From IMG/VR virus record IMGVR_UViG_3300037285_000192, positions 1-29,593 of that record: 29,593 bases of DNA. One strand, given 5' to 3'. Both the position numbers and the translations under genes were made by a program. The notes beneath the pieces were generated by a model. The model was not told the origin of the DNA, made no database searches, and worked only from the letters and a program-made list of their open reading frames with translations. The stretch comes from a virus. Shown piece after piece: positions 1-29,593 of the stretch; the first letter of the stretch is position 1; each line of letters starts with the position of its first letter.

Positions 1-2053
1 GATAAAGCATTTCATTTGCGATAAATTCTGAAGTATTATCGTCTGGCATCCATGTGCAATTGCTTAGAGTAAAATATCTTTGCTCATCGTTGTACTGAAT
101 TTTGAGAATATCGTTATACTTTAAAGGGGAATCGGTAGCACCTTCAAAACTAAAGTGTGGCGTTTGATAGATCTTCTTTTCTATTTCGCCCACTATCTGA
201 CCAAAACGCTTATTTTCTACTTCAAAAATAGCATCGGACCAGCTGGTGATTTCATTACGTGATCTCGTTTCTTCTTTGTAACTAGAGTAATTTACCAATA
301 TATGACCATCGGTTAAAGATTCATTTACTTCTATAGCTGCAGACTCCCCATCTTCATAATTAAATATGATATTAGGATCATTAAGAATTTCCCCAGTTAA
401 AACATTAGGTGCGTTAACATGAAATATTTTATTTATTTCAAACCTAAATCTATAAGCCATCACTGCAGCTCTTAAAAGAACTATAGCATAGGTCACGCCA
501 TCCTTTACGGTGTAGTATTTTACAGGTAAGAAAAATCTATTCGCTTCATTATTACCAACCAATTCCCTAGTCCTTTCAAGGTAAAACGCTTCAGTAAAAA
601 GCGTAGCATCATCACCAAAACGCAAATCAATTTCAGAAATATTAGAGCCTACTTGACCATTTTCTATGATGTAGATTTCATCTTGTATTTCTGGAACTAC
701 TTCAACAGACAATTTTTTGAACTCTGTACCTCTATAATTTACACCAGAAACTTGAAATACAGAAAAAGGTTCATAAAATTTAAGGTCCAATAGGCCGTCT
801 GCTTCTGGTATTATAATAAGCTCCACAGAAGCTTCGCCACCTTCAAATTCTAAATAGGATTGACTTTGTCGACTAACATTAAGGTTGCTTACAATAACAT
901 TACCATCTAGTCTTACTTCATATATTTGATTCTTAGACCATAAGGAAACTGCTGCATCTGTTAAGTCCTCTCTTGAAATGCTGTCAAAAGATAAGCACTT
1001 AAGAGTCATTGATAGTTTTACAGTAGAATTCTGCTTTACAAAAAGCTTTTCTCGTGTTGTTATAAATCGAGTCGTGTCCAGTTTTTCTAGATTAAATCTC
1101 CTATATACTAGATTTCTTTCGGGTGGAGCTATGTAGAAATTCTCACCAGCAAATTGTATATAATTCCAATTTTTTGGCAACCATAAATTGTCAACTTGCC
1201 CTCTATATAATACCCAGGGTACTTCATTTTCTTGTATTATATCTTCAGCAAATTGAAATTGATTCCGTTCGTATGTCACCACCGCTTCTCTTATAGAAGG
1301 TACCATTCTTACACTAGGATCTGCCAGTAATGTAATTCGCTTTACGGTTCTTTCGAAAGCTTCATCCCTTAAGAAGTTAGCTTCTAGATCGAACACCTGG
1401 TAGCTAACATTTATCAATTGTCTTTTGTTAAAACCTTCAATAAACCATTTACCCTGGCATTGATAAACTTGGCAACGCATCGACTCCAGTAAATCTTTGA
1501 GGAGTTGGTAGGCATTATCTTTATTGATATCCCAAAGCCTAGTATCTACCAAAAGCTTGGACCAGTCCGGCTCATTAATGTTAATGAGAGCAGGGGAGAA
1601 GTAAAGTTCTAGATCTACCTTCGTCAGTTTTAAAATAGCGCAAAGCACTTCAATAACCGTTTTTTCTTCAGCGTAAAAGTCGGGAGAAAGCTTAAGTCCT
1701 TTAAGCAATCCCAGACCATCTACTGCAGAAAAGTTGACGTAAAATATCCCACGTCTGTAAGGTTCTTCGTAAGATTCTGGGAGCAAGTAACCTTGCCAAA
1801 CGATTTCTTGAGTAGTCGATATTCTTTTGGTCACCAGCCATTTGTGTTCGTCTGCTGTAAACAGCTCAATAAACGCAGCATCTTTTGCATCTGTAGCTTC
1901 TAGAGTAAAATTAAGCTCGCTACCTACAATAGGTTGAGTCTTGGAGTCACCACCTAGCCAATTGAGTTGTATAGAATTACGCTCTGCATATTTCAGCAAG
2001 AGATCATCTTCTATATTCTCTACGTCTTGTATGTGTATCTCGTAATTAGCCAC
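1..2053 (-). CDS. Tail protein downstream of tape measure (distal tail/baseplate-like), 3' end outside window
   Basis: An open frame of about 684 codons runs from 2053 to the window edge with no stop. The likely start is GTG at 2053-2051 (Val-Ala-Asn-Tyr-Glu-Ile), overlapping the tape-measure stop by 8 nt, which suggests translational coupling; an ATT five codons upstream is an alternative. The protein is mainly polar and beta-rich, with no signal peptide or membrane segment visible. I do not recognise a named domain. The role is inferred from position: in siphophages the gene after the tape measure encodes the distal tail, hub or baseplate protein. The last visible residues are TSEFIANEMLY. 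The C-terminus lies outside the window, unless the two window ends join (see findings). Confidence 0.75.
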   Translation of the reverse strand, partial: MANYEIHIQDVENIEDDLLLKYAERNSIQLNWLGGDSKTQPIVGSELNFTLEATDAKDAAFIELFTADEHKWLVTKRISTTQEIVWQGYLLPESYEEPYRRGIFYVNFSAVDGLGLLKGLKLSPDFYAEEKTVIEVLCAILKLTKVDLELYFSPALININEPDWSKLLVDTRLWDINKDNAYQLLKDLLESMRCQVYQCQGKWFIEGFNKRQLINVSYQVFDLEANFLRDEAFERTVKRITLLADPSVRMVPSIREAVVTYERNQFQFAEDIIQENEVPWVLYRGQVDNLWLPKNWNYIQFAGENFYIAPPERNLVYRRFNLEKLDTTRFITTREKLFVKQNSTVKLSMTLKCLSFDSISREDLTDAAVSLWSKNQIYEVRLDGNVIVSNLNVSRQSQSYLEFEGGEASVELIIIPEADGLLDLKFYEPFSVFQVSGVNYRGTEFKKLSVEVVPEIQDEIYIIENGQVGSNISEIDLRFGDDATLFTEAFYLERTRELVGNNEANRFFLPVKYYTVKDGVTYAIVLLRAAVMAYRFRFEINKIFHVNAPNVLTGEILNDPNIIFNYEDGESAAIEVNESLTDGHILVNYSSYKEETRSRNEITSWSDAIFEVENKRFGQIVGEIEKKIYQTPHFSFEGATDSPLKYNDILKIQYNDEQRYFTLSNCTWMPDDNTSEFIANEMLY

Positions 2054-13961: not shown

Positions 13962-14182
13962 TTCTTCTTATTTTTTCTATTATTCACATTGCTAAAACTT
14001 CTGTAGCACGAGTATTTGTGCTCACCAAAAAAGTCAAAGTATTGATCGTTTGCCCGGTTAAAGGCTTCAAGATTTGTTTTAGAGGTTTTCAACATTTCAA
14101 AAAAGTAGTTGTAAAATCCTACGTTAGTGGCCAGCTTTTTAATTAATTGATTTTCAGTTTCTAATTCAGAATGTGATTTCAT
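13958..14182 (-). CDS. Small protein after terminase, unknown
   Basis: This 74-residue protein has an N-terminal helix (HSELETENQLIKKLATNVGF), an aromatic-rich middle and a Lys-rich end. It overlaps the large terminase gene by 17 nt and the next gene by 4 nt, so it is coupled to both. No domain is recognised. Confidence 0.55.
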   Translation of the reverse strand: MKSHSELETENQLIKKLATNVGFYNYFFEMLKTSKTNLEAFNRANDQYFDFFGEHKYSCYRSFSNVNNRKNKKK

Positions 14183-15929
14183 TTGGATCGGTGTTATTGT
14201 ATTGAGATTCGTTATTATCCTCTGGTGTCATGGTTCCTGCTAAAGCCATTACAGATGCAATGATGCCATCTATTCTTTTGGTCGATTTGTTTTTTGCATA
14301 GCGTATATTTTCGTTTGGATCTTGGTAGGCTACGCATCCAGAAATCATCCATTTTAAAATTGGGTGGCCTCCATGTCTCATTTTTTCAGAATAAATAAGC
14401 GTTTCAAATTCTTTTGTTGGAAATGAAAAGTGAGCTGTCGTCTGTGGAAATGGATGCATCTCTATTTCTCTAGCTGTTAGATTCTGTACCAGTTGAGTAG
14501 CTTGCCACGAATCGTATTCATACCATTTTGGGTGAAGCACATCCCAGCAAAAAGCAACAATACTTTGTAAGTTTTCATAGTCAATTTGGTTTCCTGGTGT
14601 TGCCTGAAGGATGGGCTGCTTTTCGAAAAAACTGCTTACATCCTTGAAGCCTTTTAGATCAATGTATTTTTTTAGGGTTTCATTTTTCCAAAATTTGTAG
14701 GGAACTCTATCCTCAGAGGATCTTTTTTCCACTGTATCTAGTGGGCAAAAGAGCATAGGCAATAAATCTCTTATCCCATCTTCGTCTGGATTACTTACAA
14801 AAACTATTGCAGATAAATCTATCGTTGAACTTAGGTCCAAGGCGCCGGCACATCCATGTTCAATAAAGTTTTTCATTCTTATTTTCCCTGAACATTTATC
14901 CCAGATACTTTCAGGAATTCTAACATCTGCAGCGTCTACCCACATATTAAGATGCTTTGTTTTAAAATTTGGTATTTTACTAGATTGGTTAATTGCCTTT
15001 TTATATTCAGATGTTAAGTGTGAAATAGATACAGATACGTTTAAATTTGGATTTGCTTTTATCCAATTTGTTTCATCTTCCCAATCATCAATATCATCTA
15101 GATCATGAATCATTATAAAAGTGTGATCATCATCTTTTATCCCACTCAATATTTCTTTGTAAACATCTTCAGCTTCCTTGCAGGCAGATTGCATGTTGAA
15201 TCCTGCAGTAGTAATTATATAAAGCAAAGGATTTTTTCTAGCACCCATTGCAGATTCTAAAACCTCTCTAATGCTGTCGTCTTTGTGAGCATGGTATTCA
15301 TCTATAATGGCGAGTGAAGGATTTAATCCATCCTGTGATTTGGAGTCACCACCAAGAAATTTAAATTTACCCATGGCAGATGGATATCTTATTTCACGCT
15401 GTGTATTTTGTACACCCCCAGATCTAAGTGCTATCGATTTTTTGACAAAGTCGTAAGCTTGTTGCCAAACTATTTTAGCCTGGTCTTCTTTTGTTGCACC
15501 AGCGTATATTTCTGGTGAAGCTTCATCATCGAAGCATAGAAAATAAAGACCTACACCAGCCAAAGTTGCTGTCTTACCATTTTTTCTGGCCACTTTTTCA
15601 TAGACTGTTTTTATTCTTCTATTGCCAGACTGGTCCTTCCATCCCAAAATATTATAAAGAGTAAACTGCTGCCAAGGTTCTAGAGTAAATGACTCTTTCA
15701 ATTTTCCTTTTTCACCCTTGGTATGGATTAGAAATTCTTCAAAGAATTTTATAATGTGCATCCCTGCAGCATGATCTATGTAAAAACCAGACTGATCACT
15801 TTCATCAATCCATTTGTAAAATCTACTAACAGCTTGCTTTATAGTTTTACCCACAACCACTTTTCCATCACGCACATCTTGTGCATATTGAAAAGGAATT
15901 GAATTAAGCATTTCGTTAGTAATCTTCAT
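14166..15929 (-). CDS. terL: Terminase large subunit (HK97-type)
   Basis: This 587-residue protein is the packaging motor and nuclease. The ATPase domain shows an adenine-side EPWQQFTLYNILGW segment, a Walker A variant VARKNGKT (113-120), Walker B LAIIDEYH (Asp210, Glu211), and the coupling motif IITTAGFN. The C-terminal RNase-H-like nuclease shows the first acidic site in GALDLSSTIDLSA and a last one near KRIDGIIASVMAL. It starts at the stop of the small-subunit gene. It works with the small subunit, the portal and probably the neighbouring HNH nuclease. Confidence 0.95.
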   Translation of the reverse strand: MKITNEMLNSIPFQYAQDVRDGKVVVGKTIKQAVSRFYKWIDESDQSGFYIDHAAGMHIIKFFEEFLIHTKGEKGKLKESFTLEPWQQFTLYNILGWKDQSGNRRIKTVYEKVARKNGKTATLAGVGLYFLCFDDEASPEIYAGATKEDQAKIVWQQAYDFVKKSIALRSGGVQNTQREIRYPSAMGKFKFLGGDSKSQDGLNPSLAIIDEYHAHKDDSIREVLESAMGARKNPLLYIITTAGFNMQSACKEAEDVYKEILSGIKDDDHTFIMIHDLDDIDDWEDETNWIKANPNLNVSVSISHLTSEYKKAINQSSKIPNFKTKHLNMWVDAADVRIPESIWDKCSGKIRMKNFIEHGCAGALDLSSTIDLSAIVFVSNPDEDGIRDLLPMLFCPLDTVEKRSSEDRVPYKFWKNETLKKYIDLKGFKDVSSFFEKQPILQATPGNQIDYENLQSIVAFCWDVLHPKWYEYDSWQATQLVQNLTAREIEMHPFPQTTAHFSFPTKEFETLIYSEKMRHGGHPILKWMISGCVAYQDPNENIRYAKNKSTKRIDGIIASVMALAGTMTPEDNNESQYNNTDPNEITF

Positions 15930-16364
15930 TTATGATTTTTTTAGTTTTCCAAATTCAGCAAATAAGTCTCCCTGGTTAGGATCTACAGTACTGTTTAATT
16001 CCTTTTCCGATCTAGGATCTATTCCAAATTGTTTAAAGCATTGCATAATTGCTTTTTCAGCATCCCTTTTTATAGTCAATTCCACTGAAATATTTTCTGC
16101 TCCAGATGTATATTTCTGTCTATAGCCAGATCCTTTCTTATCTTTATTCTTAGATCTTATCTCTCTAACCGCCCATTCCCATTGTGAAAAGTTTTCTGCC
16201 ATAAGTTCCAAAGCCGGTAGATGAATTCTTTTCAAAGATTCTGAGGAGATTAAAATTCTAGCAAACTTTTTGAAATGTTGCTTTGCAGAAGTGTCCAAAT
16301 AAGATGGTGACTTAGGAATCTCTTTTACTAATTCTGAAGCTTCTCCTTTGTGTACTGTTTTCAT
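15930..16364 (-). CDS. terS: Terminase small subunit (P27 family)
   Basis: This 144-residue DNA-recognition subunit matches the P27/Terminase_4 pattern: a helix (SAKQHFKKFARILISSESLK), a second (LPALELMAENFSQWEWAVRE), the basic stretch YRQKYTSGAENISVELT, and the C-terminal FKQFGIDPRSEKEL helix common in this family. It directly precedes terL with no gap. It should bind the packaging site, which in this gene order is probably nearby, around 16365-16441. Confidence 0.88.
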   Translation of the reverse strand: MKTVHKGEASELVKEIPKSPSYLDTSAKQHFKKFARILISSESLKRIHLPALELMAENFSQWEWAVREIRSKNKDKKGSGYRQKYTSGAENISVELTIKRDAEKAIMQCFKQFGIDPRSEKELNSTVDPNQGDLFAEFGKLKKS

Positions 16365-16379
16365 AACTAAAGGTTTAAG

Positions 16380-16388
16380 CCCCCCCCC
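16380..16388 (-). repeat. G9 homopolymer in the HNH-terS gap (possible packaging-site region)
   Basis: Nine consecutive C on the plus strand (G on minus), the only such run in an AT-rich genome, lie 16 nt upstream of the small terminase start, in the 77-bp gap after the HNH gene. Phages with an HNH next to terminase often use cohesive ends cut near terS, so the gap is the best candidate for cos. Nothing in the sequence fixes the cut point. Confidence 0.4.
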
Positions 16389-16441
16389 TCAAATATTAAC
16401 TATTAGTAAAATTCTTGGTAAGTGGCGATGTATATACAATT

Positions 16442-16786
16442 TTATGTTTTGGTGTTTTGACCCCTATGCCCCTTGGTTTCTTTGTAACCATGAGCTTCTT
16501 TTCCAGACTTACTATCGTGGTGCCATTTGCACAGTGTTTGTAAGTTATTTTCATCTAGTTTGGCTCCGCCATCTTCAATTCTTTGAATATGATCTACATA
16601 TTTGCCCTCTGTTACAATCAAATCATCTTCACACTTCTTGCAGTTAGGATTTGTTTCAATAAATCTCTTTCTTAACTTTCTCCATGGCCAAGAGTTGTAG
16701 AAACCAGTGTCGATTGTATTTCTACGAGAGTAATGTACTCTCTCTGCTACCCATGGTCTTTTTATATTCTTTTGTTTGTTTGGCAT
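16442..16786 (-). CDS. HNH endonuclease (packaging-associated, zinc type)
   Basis: The likely start is ATG at 16786, one base after the helicase stop, giving 114 residues; an earlier ATG would run 30 nt into the helicase gene. The HNH core is complete: zinc ligands Cys49-x2-Cys52, the DHI motif (Asp65-His66), LDENNLQTLC with Asn81 and Cys86, and His89/His90. This family is found beside terminases of cos-type phages, where HNH protein aids end formation. The position directly upstream of terS fits that role. Confidence 0.9.
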   Translation of the reverse strand: MPNKQKNIKRPWVAERVHYSRRNTIDTGFYNSWPWRKLRKRFIETNPNCKKCEDDLIVTEGKYVDHIQRIEDGGAKLDENNLQTLCKWHHDSKSGKEAHGYKETKGHRGQNTKT

Positions 16787-16787
16787 T

Positions 16788-18182
16788 TTAATATGGTACA
16801 TCAATGTTAGTATCACTCATAGGTATATCGTTAGCATATTCGTCATGCTCTTGTGGGTCTGAGTACTTAACCTTGTTTCCATCAAAGTGTAGCCCAATTG
16901 TTTTAAGGGAACCCTGTCTGTATTTAGCAAAAGAGAATTCTGCATTAGCTCCCTTCTCAACCAGCCAATCATCCAATGGTGAGTCTGGATAGTAGTATTC
17001 ATGTCTATACAGAAATGTAACTATATCCGCATCTTGCTCAATCGCACCAGATTCTCTAAGGTCAGATAGCTTTGGGTGCTTATCGGTTCTAGTCTCTACA
17101 GATCTATTGAGTTGGCTCAACGCTATCACAGGGATATTAAGCTCTTTCGCTATAAGCTTTAAGTTTCTAGTGATGGAAGATATCTCCTGCTCTCTATTGT
17201 TGGCCTTTGTCTTGTCTACAATCAATTGGATGTAATCTACTATCAAAATCTTAATATCATGCTTTCGCTTCATGATCCGCGCCTTACTCACAATGTCTCG
17301 TATGTCCATGCTTGGTGTATCTTCAATGTAAATTGGGAAGTGCTTCATTGTATCTATCTTAGATGAAAGTGTATTAAAATACTCAGGCTTCTCAAATCCT
17401 TCTCTGATAAGCTGTGATAAATGAAAGTTAGAATTGTTTGCTATTGTACGCGCACTTAACTGATTGCTGCTCATTTCAAGAGAAAAGAATGCACAAGGAA
17501 TGTTTCTTAAACCACATTCTAGTGTAGTTTTTAATACAAAAGAAGTTTTACCCATACCAGGACGTGCAGCAATAATAATAAGATCTGAAGGTTGCCATCC
17601 ACCTGTAAAATTATCAAGAATTTTAAAGCCTGTTGGTACTCCAGTTAAGTTCACTTGATCTGCATTACTAAGCATCTCGACACGCTCTAGGTTATCTTGT
17701 AGTGATTCAGCATAAGATTTAGTTTTGCGCCCACTAAATACAATTTCATTTATATCATCGTTCCCTTTAGCATCCGTATTTAAAAGCTCTAAGGAGTCTG
17801 TAGACTCATCCATTGCTAACTGGATGTTACGCTGTGACTTCTCAATAATTGATCGCTTAATGTAATACTGAAGCAATAATCTACAGTGATACTCAAGGTG
17901 AGCCGAAGATCCAGTCTTATTGCAAATTAAAACCAAATCGTAAGTAGGTACATCTAGCTTTAAGCTCTTAAGCTTATCGTCCACTGTAATCATGTCGATC
18001 TTATCGTTGGCATTGTAGATCGCTACAATAGCCTTAAATATCTTTTGCATTTTAGCATCAAAGAATATCTTAGAATCCTTTAGGATTTGCATAACTTCTA
18101 TAGCTGCATCTGAATTTGTTAACAAAGCACCTATCACAGTTTCTTCTAATTCTTTGTTATATGGCATTTTCATTTTTTCCAT
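16788..18182 (-). CDS. dnaB: Replicative DNA helicase, DnaB-like
   Basis: This 464-residue hexameric helicase unwinds DNA at the phage fork. The N-terminal helical domain (about 8-110) includes EETVIGALL; the RecA-like domain has Walker A ARPGMGKT (206-213), SLEMSSNQL, Walker B ILIVDYIQLI and the RESGAIEQDADIV motif with the arginine-finger region KYRQG. The overall length is that of bacterial DnaB. It follows the initiator gene with a 1-nt overlap, a lambda O/P-like pairing in which the initiator recruits the helicase to the origin. Confidence 0.95.
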   Translation of the reverse strand: MEKMKMPYNKELEETVIGALLTNSDAAIEVMQILKDSKIFFDAKMQKIFKAIVAIYNANDKIDMITVDDKLKSLKLDVPTYDLVLICNKTGSSAHLEYHCRLLLQYYIKRSIIEKSQRNIQLAMDESTDSLELLNTDAKGNDDINEIVFSGRKTKSYAESLQDNLERVEMLSNADQVNLTGVPTGFKILDNFTGGWQPSDLIIIAARPGMGKTSFVLKTTLECGLRNIPCAFFSLEMSSNQLSARTIANNSNFHLSQLIREGFEKPEYFNTLSSKIDTMKHFPIYIEDTPSMDIRDIVSKARIMKRKHDIKILIVDYIQLIVDKTKANNREQEISSITRNLKLIAKELNIPVIALSQLNRSVETRTDKHPKLSDLRESGAIEQDADIVTFLYRHEYYYPDSPLDDWLVEKGANAEFSFAKYRQGSLKTIGLHFDGNKVKYSDPQEHDEYANDIPMSDTNIDVPY

Positions 18183-21679: not shown

Positions 21680-22330
21680 ATGAAGGGTTTAACTATTAAG
21701 GAAACAATAGAAATTATTAAGAAAAAGTGTGAAGAGCTTGAAATTACACCCTATAAAATAAATAAAGACACAGGTTTGTCCTCAAAAGGTGTTCAAAAAA
21801 TACTTGATGGTATTACAAAAAAACCAAGGGTAGAAACATTAGATACTATTTTAAGCTATTTAGAAAACTCTGTTTTAGGCTCAGAGTTAAAGGAAGATCA
21901 TGAACCCTATCTTACACCTCTTAAGACTAAAAACAAAGGCGTGCCTTACTATAATGTAGATTTTACATCTGGTTTTGATATGCTAATAAATTCAGATCAG
22001 CATAAAGCAGACTTCTTTATCGATTACCAACCTTATAACGATGCAGATTTCTGGGTAAATAACATAGGTAACTCCATGTCTCCAAAAATTGAAAATGGAG
22101 ATTTACTGGCCTTAAAACTAAAAACAGACATACAGCAAATTATATATGGTGAAATTTATGCTATCGTAATGCCAGAAATGCGGACAATTAAGTATTTAAG
22201 GAAATCTAAATTGGAAGGTCATATTGAATTTGTTCCAGAAAACTTAGTAGATTACGATGCACAGGATATGCCCATAGAATTAATTAGTAAATTTTTCATA
22301 GTTTTAGGGTCCATTAAAAAATTCTTCTAA
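21680..22330 (+). CDS. CI-like repressor with S24 (LexA) peptidase domain
   Basis: This 216-residue protein keeps the phage lysogenic. Residues 1-62 form the HTH (YKINKDTGLSSKGVQKILDG). The C-terminal domain is S24: Ser132 in IGNSMSPKIENGD and Lys171 in MRTIKYLRK form the Ser-Lys dyad. The segment FTSGFD (95-100) would carry the self-cleavage bond as Ser97-Gly98, 35 residues before the catalytic Ser, the spacing seen in LexA, which has Ala-Gly. The protein should be inactivated in the SOS response. It is one of only two plus-strand genes and faces the early operon. Confidence 0.92.
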   Translation: MKGLTIKETIEIIKKKCEELEITPYKINKDTGLSSKGVQKILDGITKKPRVETLDTILSYLENSVLGSELKEDHEPYLTPLKTKNKGVPYYNVDFTSGFDMLINSDQHKADFFIDYQPYNDADFWVNNIGNSMSPKIENGDLLALKLKTDIQQIIYGEIYAIVMPEMRTIKYLRKSKLEGHIEFVPENLVDYDAQDMPIELISKFFIVLGSIKKFF

Positions 22331-22332
22331 TT

Positions 22333-22800
22333 ATGAAAAAAGTTACACTTATTCTTGCCATTTTGATGATATCATGCGGTCCTATGATGGAAGTTAAAAT
22401 TTCTAAAACTGAAAAGGTTATTGAAACTAATTTAACAAAGAATGAAATATTCGTCAAATCCAACCAATGGATGGTCAAAACTTTCAATAATGCAGAATCA
22501 GTTATTCAATTTTCAGACAAAGAAAGTGGTACCATTACAGGCAAATACATGCTTAAGCAAACATTTACAATAGGTAATAATTATCAAGCAATTCCAAATG
22601 GTGGTATTTTCGCTATCATAAATGTAGATATTAAGGATAACAAAGCTAGAATTACGATAACTCCAGAAGAATACCATACACGAGGGAAAGGTGGTAATCC
22701 TCAATTTATTTATCCTGAAGAAACTGCCAGACAGGATATAGAGGATCTTTTAAATGATTTTGAAACTTATTTGAATATTAAAGAAAATAAGAATTGGTAA
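22333..22800 (+). CDS. DUF4468-like lipoprotein, lysogeny-associated
   Basis: This 155-residue protein has a lipoprotein signal (MKKVTLILAILMISCGP, lipobox MISC) and a TBP-like body common in Bacteroidota lipoproteins: KNEIFVKSNQWMVKTFNNAE, then GTITGKYMLKQTF and YPEETARQDIEDLLNDFETY. It is 3 nt after the repressor and on the same strand, so it is probably expressed from the prophage. Lysogenic conversion or superinfection exclusion at the outer envelope is a reasonable inference. Confidence 0.8.
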   Translation: MKKVTLILAILMISCGPMMEVKISKTEKVIETNLTKNEIFVKSNQWMVKTFNNAESVIQFSDKESGTITGKYMLKQTFTIGNNYQAIPNGGIFAIINVDIKDNKARITITPEEYHTRGKGGNPQFIYPEETARQDIEDLLNDFETYLNIKENKNW

Positions 22801-22803
22801 AAA

Positions 22804-23988
22804 TTACTTCAGACTAATAACATTTTCTTGCATTGCATCTCTTTCAGCTTCTGGATACTTATCTTTGTAGATGGTATCGATATCATTTCTTTCATGGCCC
22901 ATCAATTCTCTAATTAAGTCCTGGTCATAATGCTTATATTTTGCCAAAGTCGCAAAAGAATGTCTCATTACTTTTGTAGTTAAGTTGCCATTTTTAGGCA
23001 TAAGCTTAATATTATACAGCTTTTGGACTCGTTTTATGTTCCGGTTATGGTTATTTCTAAAGGTGATGTAAGCTTCAAATGATTTTCGCCAGGGGAATAT
23101 ATATTCTTTATCTCCAGTGTACTTAGAAATTAAATTTTCAGCTTTGGCAGTCAACTTTACATCATAAATGTAAGCGCGCTCACCGTTTTTTCTACGTTTC
23201 AAAAACACTCTACCATTTTCAATATCCGTTTTCTTAAGATAAAAAATATCGATAAGGTCTGCACCACCAAGATAAAATTGAATAAGCGCAAGATCTAAAC
23301 ATCTTTGATGAGATACGTGTACAGTTTTTATAGTTTCAATCCTTAAAATTTCATCTGCGCCCAAATAATAATTTTTAGCACGTCTTTTAATGATTGGTAG
23401 ATCAGTGAATAAACCCAAAAAGGGGTTAAAATTTTCAATATGCCCGTCTTTTATAGCCGAATTATAGACAGCTCTTATGGTGACCAGATTTTTTTTTATG
23501 CTGGTATTTTTAAGACCTTGATCCTTTTTATGTAATTTGTAGCTATTCAAAAACTGCATTGTAATGTCTTTAAACGTAAGAGGATCTTTAAATTTTTTCA
23601 AATCCACTAAAGTTTCAGCATATACTTTTGCATTCCCTTTCCTGTTTTGCTGCTGCATAAAATCAATTCGCTTTTCAAAATAGGAATAAAAGGAAGTTAT
23701 TTTAGCAGTCTCATTTTTGAATAAATAAGTTAAGGCCATTTCAAAATCAGTTATATTTTGAAATTCTAGATCTTGCAATTTAGATTTTATGAAAAGTATA
23801 TAATCATATTTATTTTCAAAATCAGCAGCAGTCGGTTTTGGAAGTTGCCTCAGATGGTTCCAGTCAGCCTCAAAACTAGAAAAAAGCTTCTTTCTTTTTA
23901 CTTTTCTATCATGCGACAGGATCAATTTAATGGGATAGCCATTTTTTGTAAGGCCATCATTTTTTAAAAGCATTATTTTTCCAGTCAT
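22804..23988 (-). CDS. int: Tyrosine recombinase (phage integrase) lacking the usual Arg I
   Basis: I chose ATG 23988 (MTGKIMLLKNDG, 394 aa), because a likely -7 box TATTTTTG lies at 24026-24019 and arm repeats occupy the space between; a longer frame starts at 24030. The protein has an arm-binding N-terminus, a SAM-like core-binding domain (about 95-195) and the catalytic domain. Catalytic pieces visible: KVMRH (Lys339 in place of the usual His, Arg342), LMGH (His365) and the nucleophile Tyr374 in DIDTIY. The Arg I position (G-x-R in G-I-R-I-S-D) reads G-A-D-L-I-D. Loss of Arg I is known in the Bacteroidota integrase IntDOT. It inserts the phage at the tRNA beside it. Confidence 0.92.
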   Translation of the reverse strand: MTGKIMLLKNDGLTKNGYPIKLILSHDRKVKRKKLFSSFEADWNHLRQLPKPTAADFENKYDYILFIKSKLQDLEFQNITDFEMALTYLFKNETAKITSFYSYFEKRIDFMQQQNRKGNAKVYAETLVDLKKFKDPLTFKDITMQFLNSYKLHKKDQGLKNTSIKKNLVTIRAVYNSAIKDGHIENFNPFLGLFTDLPIIKRRAKNYYLGADEILRIETIKTVHVSHQRCLDLALIQFYLGGADLIDIFYLKKTDIENGRVFLKRRKNGERAYIYDVKLTAKAENLISKYTGDKEYIFPWRKSFEAYITFRNNHNRNIKRVQKLYNIKLMPKNGNLTTKVMRHSFATLAKYKHYDQDLIRELMGHERNDIDTIYKDKYPEAERDAMQENVISLK

Positions 23989-24083
23989 AATTCGTAAACT
24001 TTTCGTAAACAATTTACGCAAAAATACCACATAATACCCTAAAGGGATAAGTTTTTGTAAGAGTAGGAAAGTATATAAAATGC

Positions 24084-24108
24084 AAAAAGCCCTTGTATTA
24101 AGGGCTTT
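24084..24108 (-). terminator. Terminator just after the tRNA 3' segment
   Basis: Stem AAAGCCCTT (24086-24094) pairs with AAGGGCTTT (24100-24108) across a 5-nt loop, followed on minus by five T (24088-24084). It directly follows the tRNA fragment, so it may be the host tRNA's own terminator copied in attP. Confidence 0.75.
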
Positions 24109-24115
24109 AGGGGTG

Positions 24116-24162
24116 TAGCGTGGACGAGAATTGAACTCGTGACCTCCGAGTTATGAATCCGA
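24116..24162 (-). other. 3' portion of tRNA-Met (anticodon CAT), attachment core
   Basis: Reading minus: anticodon stem-loop with loop TTCATAA (24157-24151), variable loop AGGTC, T-arm ACGAG-TTCAATT-CTCGT (24140-24124), acceptor strand CCACGCT plus discriminator A (24116). No CCA follows. No D-arm or 5' acceptor (AGCGTGG) exists upstream, so it is a partial copy, as expected for attP in a tRNA gene. The anticodon stem pairs imperfectly, possibly from phage-specific bases. Confidence 0.75.
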
Positions 24163-24231
24163 TAAACTAATAAGCAATAGAAAGGGTTTAGAATCAAAAA
24201 CATAATAAATCGTAAACTATTCGTAAACATT

Positions 24232-24498
24232 TTAATTAAAAAACAGTCTCTTAAACTCGTTTTCATCTATCTCTGAAGGAATAATATAAGGTCTGAGTTC
24301 TAAGGCTCCACATATCTTAAGGTAATTAGTCAACAACATTTCGGTTTCACCTTTAAAATTGCGAATCAAAGTGGATTCACTAACTTCAATTAATTCTGAA
24401 AGCTTTAATTGTGTCATCTTTTTTTCCTTCATTCGGTCTTTGATGAAGTCAAATATTAATTGCTTTCCTAGATCTGAGCTCATGTTATAGTTTGGCAT
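24232..24498 (-). CDS. XRE-family HTH protein
   Basis: This 88-residue protein (ATG at 24498; an internal ATG at 24483 is equally good) has one HTH: TQLKLSELIEVSESTLIRNF (about 29-48), XRE-like, then a helical end (LELRPYIIPSEIDENEFKRL). It follows gene 24535-24945 in the same direction with a 36-nt gap and lies between it and attP. The pairing with an upstream partner and a palindromic operator resembles toxin-antitoxin or regulator pairs. Confidence 0.8.
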   Translation of the reverse strand: MPNYNMSSDLGKQLIFDFIKDRMKEKKMTQLKLSELIEVSESTLIRNFKGETEMLLTNYLKICGALELRPYIIPSEIDENEFKRLFFN

Positions 24499-25035: not shown

Positions 25036-25590
25036 TTAGAATCGTATTAATCGATAAGTTAATCCAAGACCCAAATAAGGCGTAAAACCATCTGGAGTGT
25101 AAGCGACTCCTACTTGTGGACCAATCACAAAGCGATAGTTTTTGACTTGTATATCAGTTTCAATGCTGCGTGACTTAATTGTGTAGTCAAAGGCCATGGA
25201 CTTAATCTCGCCCTGGACTTCACCGGTAACTGTAGCTGTGAAGTAATCGTCCTCAAAGGTCTTAGAGTAGTTCTGAATCTTGATAGCTTCTAAGAATAGC
25301 TTATAACGATCAAATTCAGATTTCAAAGCCTGGTAATCTTTAGCTAATTTTTCATCTACTTTGTTTTCAATATAAATAATTGAATCTTTATACTCGGTTT
25401 TGTAGATAATAGAATCCTTCCCTTTTATTGGCCACTGGAGAATGTTATTGTCAAGCTCGAAGCTGCCTTTTTTTTCAGGAACTTCTACAATGATGGTCTT
25501 AGGTTTTGTAGAATCAGAGCATTGTTTGATGTTGCATACAAGCAAGATCACAATGGCAATACTAAGAATTAAGGATTTATCTATTTTCAT
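25036..25590 (-). CDS. Spanin-like lysis accessory protein
   Basis: ATG 25590 overlaps the amidase stop as ATGA (184 aa); an upstream ATG in the amidase gene is less likely. An N-terminal membrane helix (SLILSIAIVILLVCNIKQC) anchors a periplasmic coiled-coil region (about 70-110, DEKLAKDYQALKSEFDRYK) and a C-terminal beta region ending GLGLTYRLIRF. The order amidase then anchored coiled-coil protein suggests an inner-membrane spanin-like role in the final step of lysis. The beta C-terminus could reach the outer membrane (inference). Confidence 0.7.
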   Translation of the reverse strand: MKIDKSLILSIAIVILLVCNIKQCSDSTKPKTIIVEVPEKKGSFELDNNILQWPIKGKDSIIYKTEYKDSIIYIENKVDEKLAKDYQALKSEFDRYKLFLEAIKIQNYSKTFEDDYFTATVTGEVQGEIKSMAFDYTIKSRSIETDIQVKNYRFVIGPQVGVAYTPDGFTPYLGLGLTYRLIRF

Positions 25591-26102
25591 CTGTCTGTAG
25601 GTAAAATTAAACGCCTGTCTATAGATGTGTAATGCAAGTATTCGTGCATAGCTCCAAAGCTTGGACATTCTTTTGTTCGCTCTACACTTGAAATATTTCC
25701 ATCATCATTCTGGTCTGGAGAGAAATCTCTGTGGCCAACTACGCAAAAATCTACATCGGTATTTTGGCCATTGGCTCTTAACCATAACATCACATCACTT
25801 ATAAGATGCTGCAGGCTCAATTTCTGTTCTGGGGTTCTTGAGTCTATAGCTTTCTTATAATTATTCTTTTCTACTCCACCTATGTAGCTAATATGTATGT
25901 ACTCACTATTGTAGCCCTTTACTCCATTGGTGTAACCCTCGTAATCTCTAAGCTTGTGAATTTTGCCATCCTCATCTACAATTCTATGGTAGCCAGGTGA
26001 TTTCCATCCAAGACTTTTCCAAAATCTTTCAATAGATTTTACATTTCCATACCCTGCGCTGCAGTGTATTACAATTCCTAGTACTTGTCCTGGTCTTGGC
26101 AT
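25587..26102 (-). CDS. Endolysin: N-acetylmuramoyl-L-alanine amidase (Amidase_2)
   Basis: This 171-residue enzyme cuts the amide bond between muramic acid and L-alanine in peptidoglycan. Zinc ligands are visible: His13 in IVIHCSAG, His124 in VVGHRDFSPD, Cys146 in ERTKECPSF, with Tyr38-His39 near the active site. There is no signal peptide, so it needs the holin just upstream in the operon. It overlaps the holin by 1 nt and the spanin-like gene by 4 nt. Confidence 0.94.
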   Translation of the reverse strand: MPRPGQVLGIVIHCSAGYGNVKSIERFWKSLGWKSPGYHRIVDEDGKIHKLRDYEGYTNGVKGYNSEYIHISYIGGVEKNNYKKAIDSRTPEQKLSLQHLISDVMLWLRANGQNTDVDFCVVGHRDFSPDQNDDGNISSVERTKECPSFGAMHEYLHYTSIDRRLILPTDR

Positions 26103-26644
26103 CAGCTAAATAGTTTTTGTATTTTTTTAATAATTCCATCCTCTACCGTTCTAGAGATTTTCTCAAAAAATGTAAAGTATTTAGGTTTTTTACCGTAAAG
26201 GGTTTCTAAATGTTTTCCAATACTGGCAAATTCATACAAGCAAATCATAATATTAATTGCTATTGTGAGATATAAAAAAGTCCTGTAAAAACCAGTTAAT
26301 TTAAGAGCTATAAAAAGAAAGCAGAAAATCACCATAGAAAACATTAGAATAATTACACCAAAGAATTTCCAGAAACTCTCCCATAGCCTAGAACCTGTGA
26401 TTTCTATTTCTTTTTTTCTTGAAGCGTTTATTCCTAAGATAAAGTCTACTAGGTATAAAATAAAAAAGGCAAAGATTCCAAGTGCTACAACTACTAACGG
26501 CATAATTAGATCCTTTTGCTCTACTCCTTCAAATATCAGATTGCAGAGCTGTGTGACTCCCCAGCTAGGAGCTATAGCAATTACGAACAAGGCTCCATTA
26601 TGAAACTCTAGTATTTTTTCTAAATAAGTATTGGTCGTATTCAT
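26102..26644 (-). CDS. Phage holin (holin_4 family-like)
   Basis: This 180-residue protein has up to four membrane helices: about 17-37, 46-70 (LIMPLVVVALGIFAFFILYL, then the DFILGINASRKK loop typical of holin_4), 92-113 and 122-142. A basic C-terminus (DGIIKKIQKLFS) is cytoplasmic. It should form membrane holes that release the amidase encoded next. It is somewhat longer than typical members (about 130-150). Confidence 0.82.
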   Translation of the reverse strand: MNTTNTYLEKILEFHNGALFVIAIAPSWGVTQLCNLIFEGVEQKDLIMPLVVVALGIFAFFILYLVDFILGINASRKKEIEITGSRLWESFWKFFGVIILMFSMVIFCFLFIALKLTGFYRTFLYLTIAINIMICLYEFASIGKHLETLYGKKPKYFTFFEKISRTVEDGIIKKIQKLFS

Positions 26645-28462: not shown

Positions 28463-29176
28463 TTAATAAGTTATTCCTGCACCTCCGTTGTAATTATCAG
28501 TAATATTTTGCGCACTCCATCCACTACCTTTTACTATAACAGTTTCTTTTAATTTTCCAATTAAATTTAAATTATTCGTAAAACTTTCATTCGCTAATTT
28601 AACTCGGCTTGACCCGTTATAAAATGTAAATCCTACAGGCAAAGTTTCTGTATTCTCAATAACTCCATCTATAAATAAGCTTAAAGTAGTTCCGTTTAGT
28701 GTGACTCCTAAAATATATTTCTGCCCTATTGTTGGAATAAATGCGGTTGTTATACCAAAAATAGTATTTGATGAACTCCAGATAAAGAACATTAGTTCAT
28801 CTGAATTATAAATAAACTGCCATTCTTGAACATGACTCTGCAATGATATCCTTTTTGATACCAGCCAAGCTCTATCTAAATTAAAACCATTAAAAATAAC
28901 TTCCGTTTTTATTACAAAATCAGTATTATTTCCATTTCCATCTGTAAAGCTAAAATCATCTTCATCTAATATATCTACAGATTGTTGTGAATTGTTAAAG
29001 GCATAATATTCACCATCCCTACTTATATTACCGTTAAGTGTACCATTGTAAGCGTTGACTAAATCAATAGCATCTCCTGTGGTTTCGTCTAGTCTGTAGT
29101 AAGCAACAGCATTATCAAACATTGGGTTTCTTGCTCCTGCCCTCAATCTACTAGCTGCTATTATTCCCATGTTCAT
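28463..29176 (-). CDS. LamG/concanavalin-like adhesin, likely host-recognition protein
   Basis: This 237-residue protein is a single jelly-roll LamG domain: NAVAYYRLDETTGDAIDLVN, AYNGTLNGN, FSFTDGNGN, WQFIYNSDELMFFIWSSS, GQKYILGVTLNGTTLSLFID, and a C-terminal KLKETVIVKGSG strand. Such domains bind glycans or proteins on the host surface and are common in tail fibres of Bacteroidota phages. It starts 1 nt after the collagen-like gene stop. Confidence 0.85.
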   Translation of the reverse strand: MNMGIIAASRLRAGARNPMFDNAVAYYRLDETTGDAIDLVNAYNGTLNGNISRDGEYYAFNNSQQSVDILDEDDFSFTDGNGNNTDFVIKTEVIFNGFNLDRAWLVSKRISLQSHVQEWQFIYNSDELMFFIWSSSNTIFGITTAFIPTIGQKYILGVTLNGTTLSLFIDGVIENTETLPVGFTFYNGSSRVKLANESFTNNLNLIGKLKETVIVKGSGWSAQNITDNYNGGAGITY

Positions 29177-29177
29177 A

Positions 29178-29593
29178 TTAAGCTAATTTAAGTGTTCCTA
29201 GAATTGTACTTACATCGCTTCCGTCGGTTCTGATTCCAAAGAAACAATGCTGTTCTGCTGTCTCCGCTAGAAATACTGAAGGCACGTTTAAAGTTCCACC
29301 AGATTCTGCTGAAAAGGTTACTTGACCAGTGCCACCTTGTTTACCTTGAAACTCTAAGTTAGCAGGTAGTCCGTTAGGTACTACAACGGTACAAGCATTA
29401 GAGAAGATTAAGAACTTATCTACATCGGTAGCTAATAGAATGTAACTAGATGCTGAAATTGGTCTGTTGGTTCTTGCTGTAAGATCTTCGCCTGCAGGTC
29501 CTGTCTCTCCTTGTATTCCTTGTGGTCCAGCCTCACCTGTATCTCCTTTTTCACCTTTAATAAACGCATAGTAATCTGCAAGTGAAGAAAAAT
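29178..29593 (-). CDS. Collagen-like tail fibre, N-terminus outside window
   Basis: The visible 138 residues (frame open to the window edge) begin FSSLADYYAFIKG, continue with Gly-x-y triplets (GEKGDTGEAGPQGIQGETGP), and then a C-terminal globular domain (about 34-138) rich in beta strands (ASSYILLATDVDKFLIFSN). Collagen-like stretches form triple helices in phage fibres. The start lies beyond 29593, unless the ends join. Confidence 0.85.
   Translation of the reverse strand, partial: FSSLADYYAFIKGEKGDTGEAGPQGIQGETGPAGEDLTARTNRPISASSYILLATDVDKFLIFSNACTVVVPNGLPANLEFQGKQGGTGQVTFSAESGGTLNVPSVFLAETAEQHCFFGIRTDGSDVSTILGTLKLA

Follow-up and report, generated by a model that had tools for sequence, protein, structure and literature searches.

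Organization of the Attachment Site and Its Flanking Genes

The window, i.e., the whole 29,593-nucleotide stretch of viral DNA analyzed here, contains a phage attachment site (attP) adjoined by an integrase (int) gene, with phage gene modules on either side. The int side carries genes for Int, a CI-like repressor, DnaB, an HNH endonuclease, terminase, portal, major head protein, and tape measure, and the opposite side carries genes for a Cro-type HTH protein, an amidase, a holin-like protein, a lectin-domain protein, and a collagen-like tail fiber (Table 1). No host DNA was recognized anywhere in the record. The integrase was assigned to phrog_1, with the Pfam domains PF13102 and PF00589 above the cut-off.

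Table 1. Coordinates of the features discussed in the text (window numbering).
Feature	Position	Strand	Remarks
Large tail structural protein, hub position behind tape measure	1..2053	-	Cut by one record end
Large terminase (TerL)	14166-15929	-	
Small terminase (TerS)	15930-16364	-	
Inferred 9-nt cohesive-end sequence	16419..16427	-	CGCCACTTA; between termini 16428 (...ATACAT) and 16418 (CCAAGAATTTTACT...)
HNH endonuclease	16442-16816	-	Within the 14166..16816 block around cos
CI/LexA-like repressor	21680..22330	+	phrog_4, transcriptional repressor
Small conserved lysogeny-block protein	22333..22800	+	phrog_4002, unknown function
Tyrosine integrase	22804..23988	-	394 aa from conserved ATG at 23988; ORF listing extends to GTG at 24030
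P arm pair, int side	23992..24010	-	GTTTACGAAAAGTTTACGA; ends 3 bp ahead of the int start codon
Rho-independent-terminator-like hairpin and T run	24084..24108	-	Immediately follows the tRNA segment
attP core, 3' part of elongator tRNA-Met	24115..24162	-	48 nt; TCGGATTCATAAC...CGCTAC
P' arm pair, lysis side	24210..24228	-	GTTTACGAATAGTTTACGA
Cro/C1-type HTH protein by the P' arms	24232..24498	-	PF01381 / PF13443
Lysis cassette: N-acetylmuramoyl-L-alanine amidase and holin-family protein	25587..26644	-	PF01510, PF05105, phrog_21433
Collagen-like tail fiber and lectin-domain protein	28463..29593	-	Tail end of the structural module, far side of attP; fiber cut by the other record end

The sequence TCGTAAAC occurs four times in the 29.6-kb window (23992, 24003, 24210, and 24221), arranged as two pairs with an 11-bp start-to-start spacing in each. 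Under a first-order Markov model of the window, 0.41 copies would be expected on both strands, and an 11-bp-spaced pair appeared in none of 200 simulated windows. Read on the minus strand, the site runs from the Cro-type HTH gene through the P' pair (24228-24210), the core (24162-24115), the terminator hairpin (24108-24084), and the P pair (24010-23992) to the int start (23988). The putative arm-type repeats thus lie on both sides of the core, and they are conserved along with the integrase family. The P pair was kept in two related contigs (L003 and L004), showed one change in the Psychroflexus lacisalsi junction described below, and was unchanged (GTTTACGAAAAGTTTACGA) at the locus of a 43%-identical integrase (G283, locus L121). 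Exact copies of the P' pair in IMG/VR were found only in the relatives L003, L004 (= L186), L005, and L039 (= L187). IMG/VR contained just one further exact match to the P arm (L188), which was without a related integrase and was discounted. The arm pattern GTTTACGANNAGTTTACGA is rare, with no match in 396 genomes of the order; since the control was also without a match, this survey yields no statistics on tRNA linkage.

The hairpin and T run were retained in L003, L004, L005, and the P. lacisalsi junction, and upon integration this phage hairpin would give the tRNA a new terminator. Because the P pair lies so close to the int start, occupation of this site by Int could repress int expression. 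Given the unoccupied host tRNA-Met and the occupied one of P. lacisalsi described below, the site appears to be a genuine tyrosine-integrase attP in the unrecombined form (POP'). The earlier note had described an attP with phage DNA on both sides rather than a single prophage, two repeat pairs of 11-bp spacing, and lysis and tail-fiber genes beyond the site, and each of these was confirmed by the repeat pairs at 23992/24003 and 24210/24221, by the flanking gene modules, and by the amidase, holin-like, and collagen-like fiber genes. The tRNA-Met 3' segment reported there is also real and was placed correctly to within 1–3 bases, with its length corrected from 45 to 48 nt.

The tRNA Core and the Likely Host

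The core opens with the 5' anticodon-stem strand and stops where the acceptor stem ends. Because it is only half a tRNA, ARAGORN called no whole tRNA and Rfam no RNA family in the window. A search for an intact host tRNA-Met with a matching 3' end, as suggested in the earlier note, succeeded in Psychroflexus: the core was identical at 48 of 48 positions to the tRNA-Met of a genome of this genus (G026, locus L022), with the identity extending over 49 nt, one base beyond the tRNA. This genome shares with the core two bases that differ in the rest of the genus, and the tRNA-Met of 11 other Psychroflexus members examined matched at 46 of 48 positions (2 nt off). Besides P. lacisalsi, eleven genomes of the genus, G026 among them, had this tRNA-Met, mostly followed by a terminator-like hairpin of the host's own. 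No related integrase was found in G026, so that its tRNA-Met is an empty attB. In a sample of 399 genomes of the family, matches to the core within 2 mismatches were confined to Psychroflexus members, which suggested that the host is most likely a Psychroflexus, a cold- and salt-loving marine bacterium.

In the Islander database, crossover in the anticodon loop of a tRNA gene is designated subsite "A" (PMC4383910). Here, the identity sets in with the 5' anticodon-stem strand, i.e., it is of the subsite "A" type, and strand exchange in the anticodon loop is therefore expected; from this starting point and the known behavior of tRNA-targeting integrases, we infer a crossover in that loop. As in the attP sites of this class, attP contains the 3' part of the tRNA, beginning with the anticodon stem, integration would restore the tRNA and leave int beside it, and putative arm-type repeats flank the core on both sides. 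Nothing essential differs; the local details of the window are the tandem 8-bp arm pairs, one helical turn apart, and the phage-borne terminator right after the core.

A Related Lysogeny Block in P. lacisalsi

The best integrase relative among species genomes was that of P. lacisalsi, with 96% identity over all 408 residues. It lies just behind a complete tRNA-Met (CAT), and phage attP sequence follows directly after this tRNA. The alignment of window positions 21724-24162 with P. lacisalsi (95%) stops exactly at the core start, and this junction is an attL. An attR in P. lacisalsi was found neither by DNA comparison nor by the arm pattern, and the locus was treated as a remnant for this reason. 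Hence, of the attL and attR junctions that the earlier note had anticipated in host genomes, only attL was recovered. No complete integrated copy of the window phage was present in 27 genomes of the genus Psychroflexus.

The P. lacisalsi tRNA-Met island (NZ_JAIQYZ010000001, 1463071-1482001) resembles the window in the tRNA gene, the integrase (96% at the amino acid level), the small gene (99%), and the repressor (86%), and differs from it in that the lysogeny block alone was kept. This insert of about 19 kb on contig 1 (L002:9842-12294, L009) contains int, the small gene, and the repressor after the tRNA-Met, followed by P-type ATPase, universal stress, DnaJ-like, and transporter genes. The phrog_4002 protein is encoded between the repressor and int and is more conserved in P. 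lacisalsi than the repressor (99% vs 86%); its gene appears to travel with the lysogeny block.

The P. lacisalsi locus demonstrates that such remnants occur, and the window itself might be a single integrated prophage or a decayed tRNA-associated island of the same kind. This is the least probable of the readings considered here. The tRNA copy in the window is without a 5' half, an unrecombined attP with phage DNA on both sides excludes a single integrated prophage, and the structural and lysis genes of the window are open; the sequence itself refutes both forms of this reading unless the contig is chimeric.

Relatives at Other tRNA Genes

The plan of tRNA 3' half, hairpin, arm pair, and int recurs with other tRNAs, and free forms contain a second arm pair beyond the core. 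The attP of L005 (L005:3017-3240), whose integrase is 87% identical, carries the 3' half of an initiator tRNA-fMet, together with P' arms and a terminator type as in the window; the tRNA concerned is called Met by ARAGORN in L142, and its initiator identity was read from the GGG/CCC anticodon-stem pairs. More distant integrases are located at tRNA-His (L121), tRNA-Arg (L120, 41% identity), and a tRNA-Met (L122, 35%). A 35.9-kb contig (G424, integrase 45%) runs from core to core, with the same 47-nt tRNA fragment at its start and end and arm pairs at both ends (L164, L165).

The 3' halves of elongator tRNA-Met and initiator tRNA-fMet have mainly the anticodon region TCATAACCCG in common. Small changes in the core redirected the tRNA integrase of mycobacteriophage Ms6 to another tRNA gene in experiments (PMC1762012). 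The attP may be modular, with arms, terminator, and int fixed and the tRNA 3' half swapped, so that a nearly identical integrase (87%) would have shifted from elongator tRNA-Met to initiator tRNA-fMet; we consider the chances of this proposal to be even.

Two further genomes contain the tRNA-fMet 3' half twice on the same strand, with one whole tRNA, at a distance of 25.7 kb in G008 (C1:134157-159893) and 32.6 kb in G004 (C31:36911-69524). They were rejected as integrated relatives, as neither the G008 island nor the G004 stretches that were read contained a match to any window protein, and their sequences suggest other islands in the initiator tRNA gene.

Probable Loss of the Lysogeny Genes in Two Relatives

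In L039 (2080-2240), the P' arm pair is joined straight to the P-arm side and the first int codons, followed by the start of the repressor gene. This removes the core, the phrog_4002 gene, and the larger part of both int and the repressor; the first junction lies inside the repeated arm sequence. In L050 (1930-2060), 19 nt of the core remain, followed by a truncated repressor. The Cro/C1-type HTH gene was found in both of these int-less contigs as well. These two structures look like independent natural losses of lysogeny, and the contigs probably represent natural virulent derivatives. The sequence words shared at the junctions are very short, which makes an assembly error, though possible, an unlikely cause.

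Linkage of the Record Ends

Both ends of the record lie in tail genes. In a contig from another metagenome (L003), the fiber is contiguous with the hub gene: this contig starts in the C-terminal part of the hub gene and continues through the fiber, the lysis genes, the HTH gene, attP, and int, down to HNH. Since L003 joins the tail hub through attP to int, the two ends of the window record are nearly adjacent points on one circle. The missing end of the hub gene was provided by G428. Comparison with L003 gave a gap of about 1.6 kb between the record ends (96 nt of the hub gene and, in L003, another 1.5 kb or so before the match with the window end), which is an estimate bridged by relatives alone in a region where the fiber genes vary; the record is classed as linear, not closed. 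The record accordingly covers about 95% of a temperate Psychroflexus siphovirus genome, estimated at 31 kb.

The cos Site and Packaging

Eight related contigs (L040, L041, L052, L055, L062, L067, L087, and L116) start at the same base, 5 nt ahead of AATTTTACT. L005, with its attP internal, ends in ...ATATACAT, 9 nt short of this common start. The GenBank record of Cellulophaga phage phi39:1 was opened at the same place; it starts with CGCCCATAAGTCAGAATTTT and ends in ...AAACAT, which corresponds to a cut between ACAT and CGCC. The respective putative termini in the window (16418/16428) fall between the TerS and HNH genes. The motif ACATCG-N-AATTTTACT, followed by a G run, was kept in phages with terminases less than 50% identical. 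The pattern in window positions 16405-16443 consists of ACAT, 9 nt, 5 variable nt, AATTTTACT, and the G run, and is common to siphoviruses down to this level of terminase identity. The poly-G run was rejected as a cause of the shared ends, since it lies about 30 nt from the contig starts, which agree to the base, and since the phi39:1 record was cut at this site as well.

Base-exact contig ends beside the terminase, seen in the relatives and in phi39:1, point to packaging with fixed cos ends in this phage group, as would be expected for the phage of the window. Left and right ends are separated by 9 nt, a gap that trimming of overhangs, presumably of 3' polarity, would explain. The "circularly permuted genome" of the earlier note was not supported by this comparison, since the related contigs and phi39:1 end at one fixed site. 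A packaged, circularly permuted (headful, pac) genome would agree with a record that ends in tail genes, far from the terminase, and is nevertheless highly improbable given the base-exact ends by HNH-TerS-TerL in the eight contigs, L005, and phi39:1.

The cos model with an HNH helper is HK97, for which a 3' overhang of 10 nt (figure legend) or 12 nt (discussion) is given (PMC9410871). The window resembles it in having an HNH gene (here beside TerS/TerL), a defined cos, and a short cohesive end, with a putative overhang of 9 nt as against the 10 or 12 nt of HK97 (PMC9410871), and its HNH-TerS-TerL order is that of HK97-type cos phages (PMC9410871). Phage phi39:1 (NC_021804) is similar in size (28.8 kb) and in its DnaB-HNH-...-TerS-TerL-portal-protease-capsid order, has a large terminase 51% identical to that of the window, and shares the cos cut (NC_021804.1 position 1); it differs in having no annotated integrase and in its structural and host-recognition genes.

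Physical Form of the Sequenced DNA

The window and 22 other contigs pass unbroken through the cos site, as expected for circles, concatemers, and prophages and not for virion DNA alone. The joined cos argues against plain linear virion DNA, and, combined with an intact attP, it is best fitted by a circle or a concatemer. From these observed sites and the record-end linkage, we infer the physical molecule that was sequenced: the record is probably free-form DNA of a temperate Psychroflexus phage, with its tRNA-targeting attP intact and its cos joined. The circular or packaged form deduced in the earlier note is supported as far as free DNA is concerned and was broader than needed, since any temperate virion would normally have its attP inside, with phage genes around it. 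L005 illustrates this virion case, as its attP is internal and the contig stops precisely at cos; L003, L004, and L005 have the same attP plan as the window, with phage genes on both sides.

The same sequence would be obtained from linear virion DNA whose cohesive ends were annealed or ligated in library preparation and read through cos, and L005 and the cos-starting contigs indicate that virion DNA of the group is present in these metagenomes. If virion DNA were dominant, a break at 16418/16428 would be expected, as in L040, L041, L052, and L116, but the window is unbroken; we consider this origin unlikely. To a similar degree, we doubt a composite assembly, in which free-virion reads (attP intact) were merged with prophage reads (cos joined). 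Both forms are expected in a temperate phage of this group, all phage sequence is common to them, and metagenome assemblies do merge such forms, but no direct sign of merging was found. Tandem prophages arranged head to tail in the same tRNA-Met (BOP'-POP'-POB'), with attP between the copies, would have an identical local sequence with attP intact and cos joined, which a single contig cannot separate from a circle. Such an array is very unlikely, as no host DNA was recognized in the record, the 27 genus genomes gave no complete integrated copy, and L003, L004, and L005 would require the same explanation.

For the circle or concatemer that we favor, the N-terminal domain of the integrase would bind both arm pairs, and strand exchange between the core and the 3' half of the elongator tRNA-Met gene would take place in the anticodon loop. 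On integration the tRNA would be restored, with the phage bringing the 3' half and the terminator, and int would end up beside the tRNA, an end state that was observed in P. lacisalsi. In virions, the DNA would have its cos ends at a fixed place, between the genes for HNH and the small terminase, and the record would come from a circle or concatemer formed after infection or induction.

Significance for Psychroflexus Phages

The window phage is previously undescribed, and its attP is of an ordinary, known type. No papers devoted to Psychroflexus phages turned up in the literature search. For a temperate phage group of Psychroflexus, attP, attL, an empty attB, and cos are now available as a set that can be checked, and a metagenomic contig has been assigned its likely host and life style. 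The state of both sites, attP intact and cos joined, is visible in contig sequence and serves to tell free phage DNA from prophage DNA. Further, the pair of initiator and elongator tRNAs with near-identical integrases constitutes a natural test case for a change of tRNA target by a tyrosine integrase.
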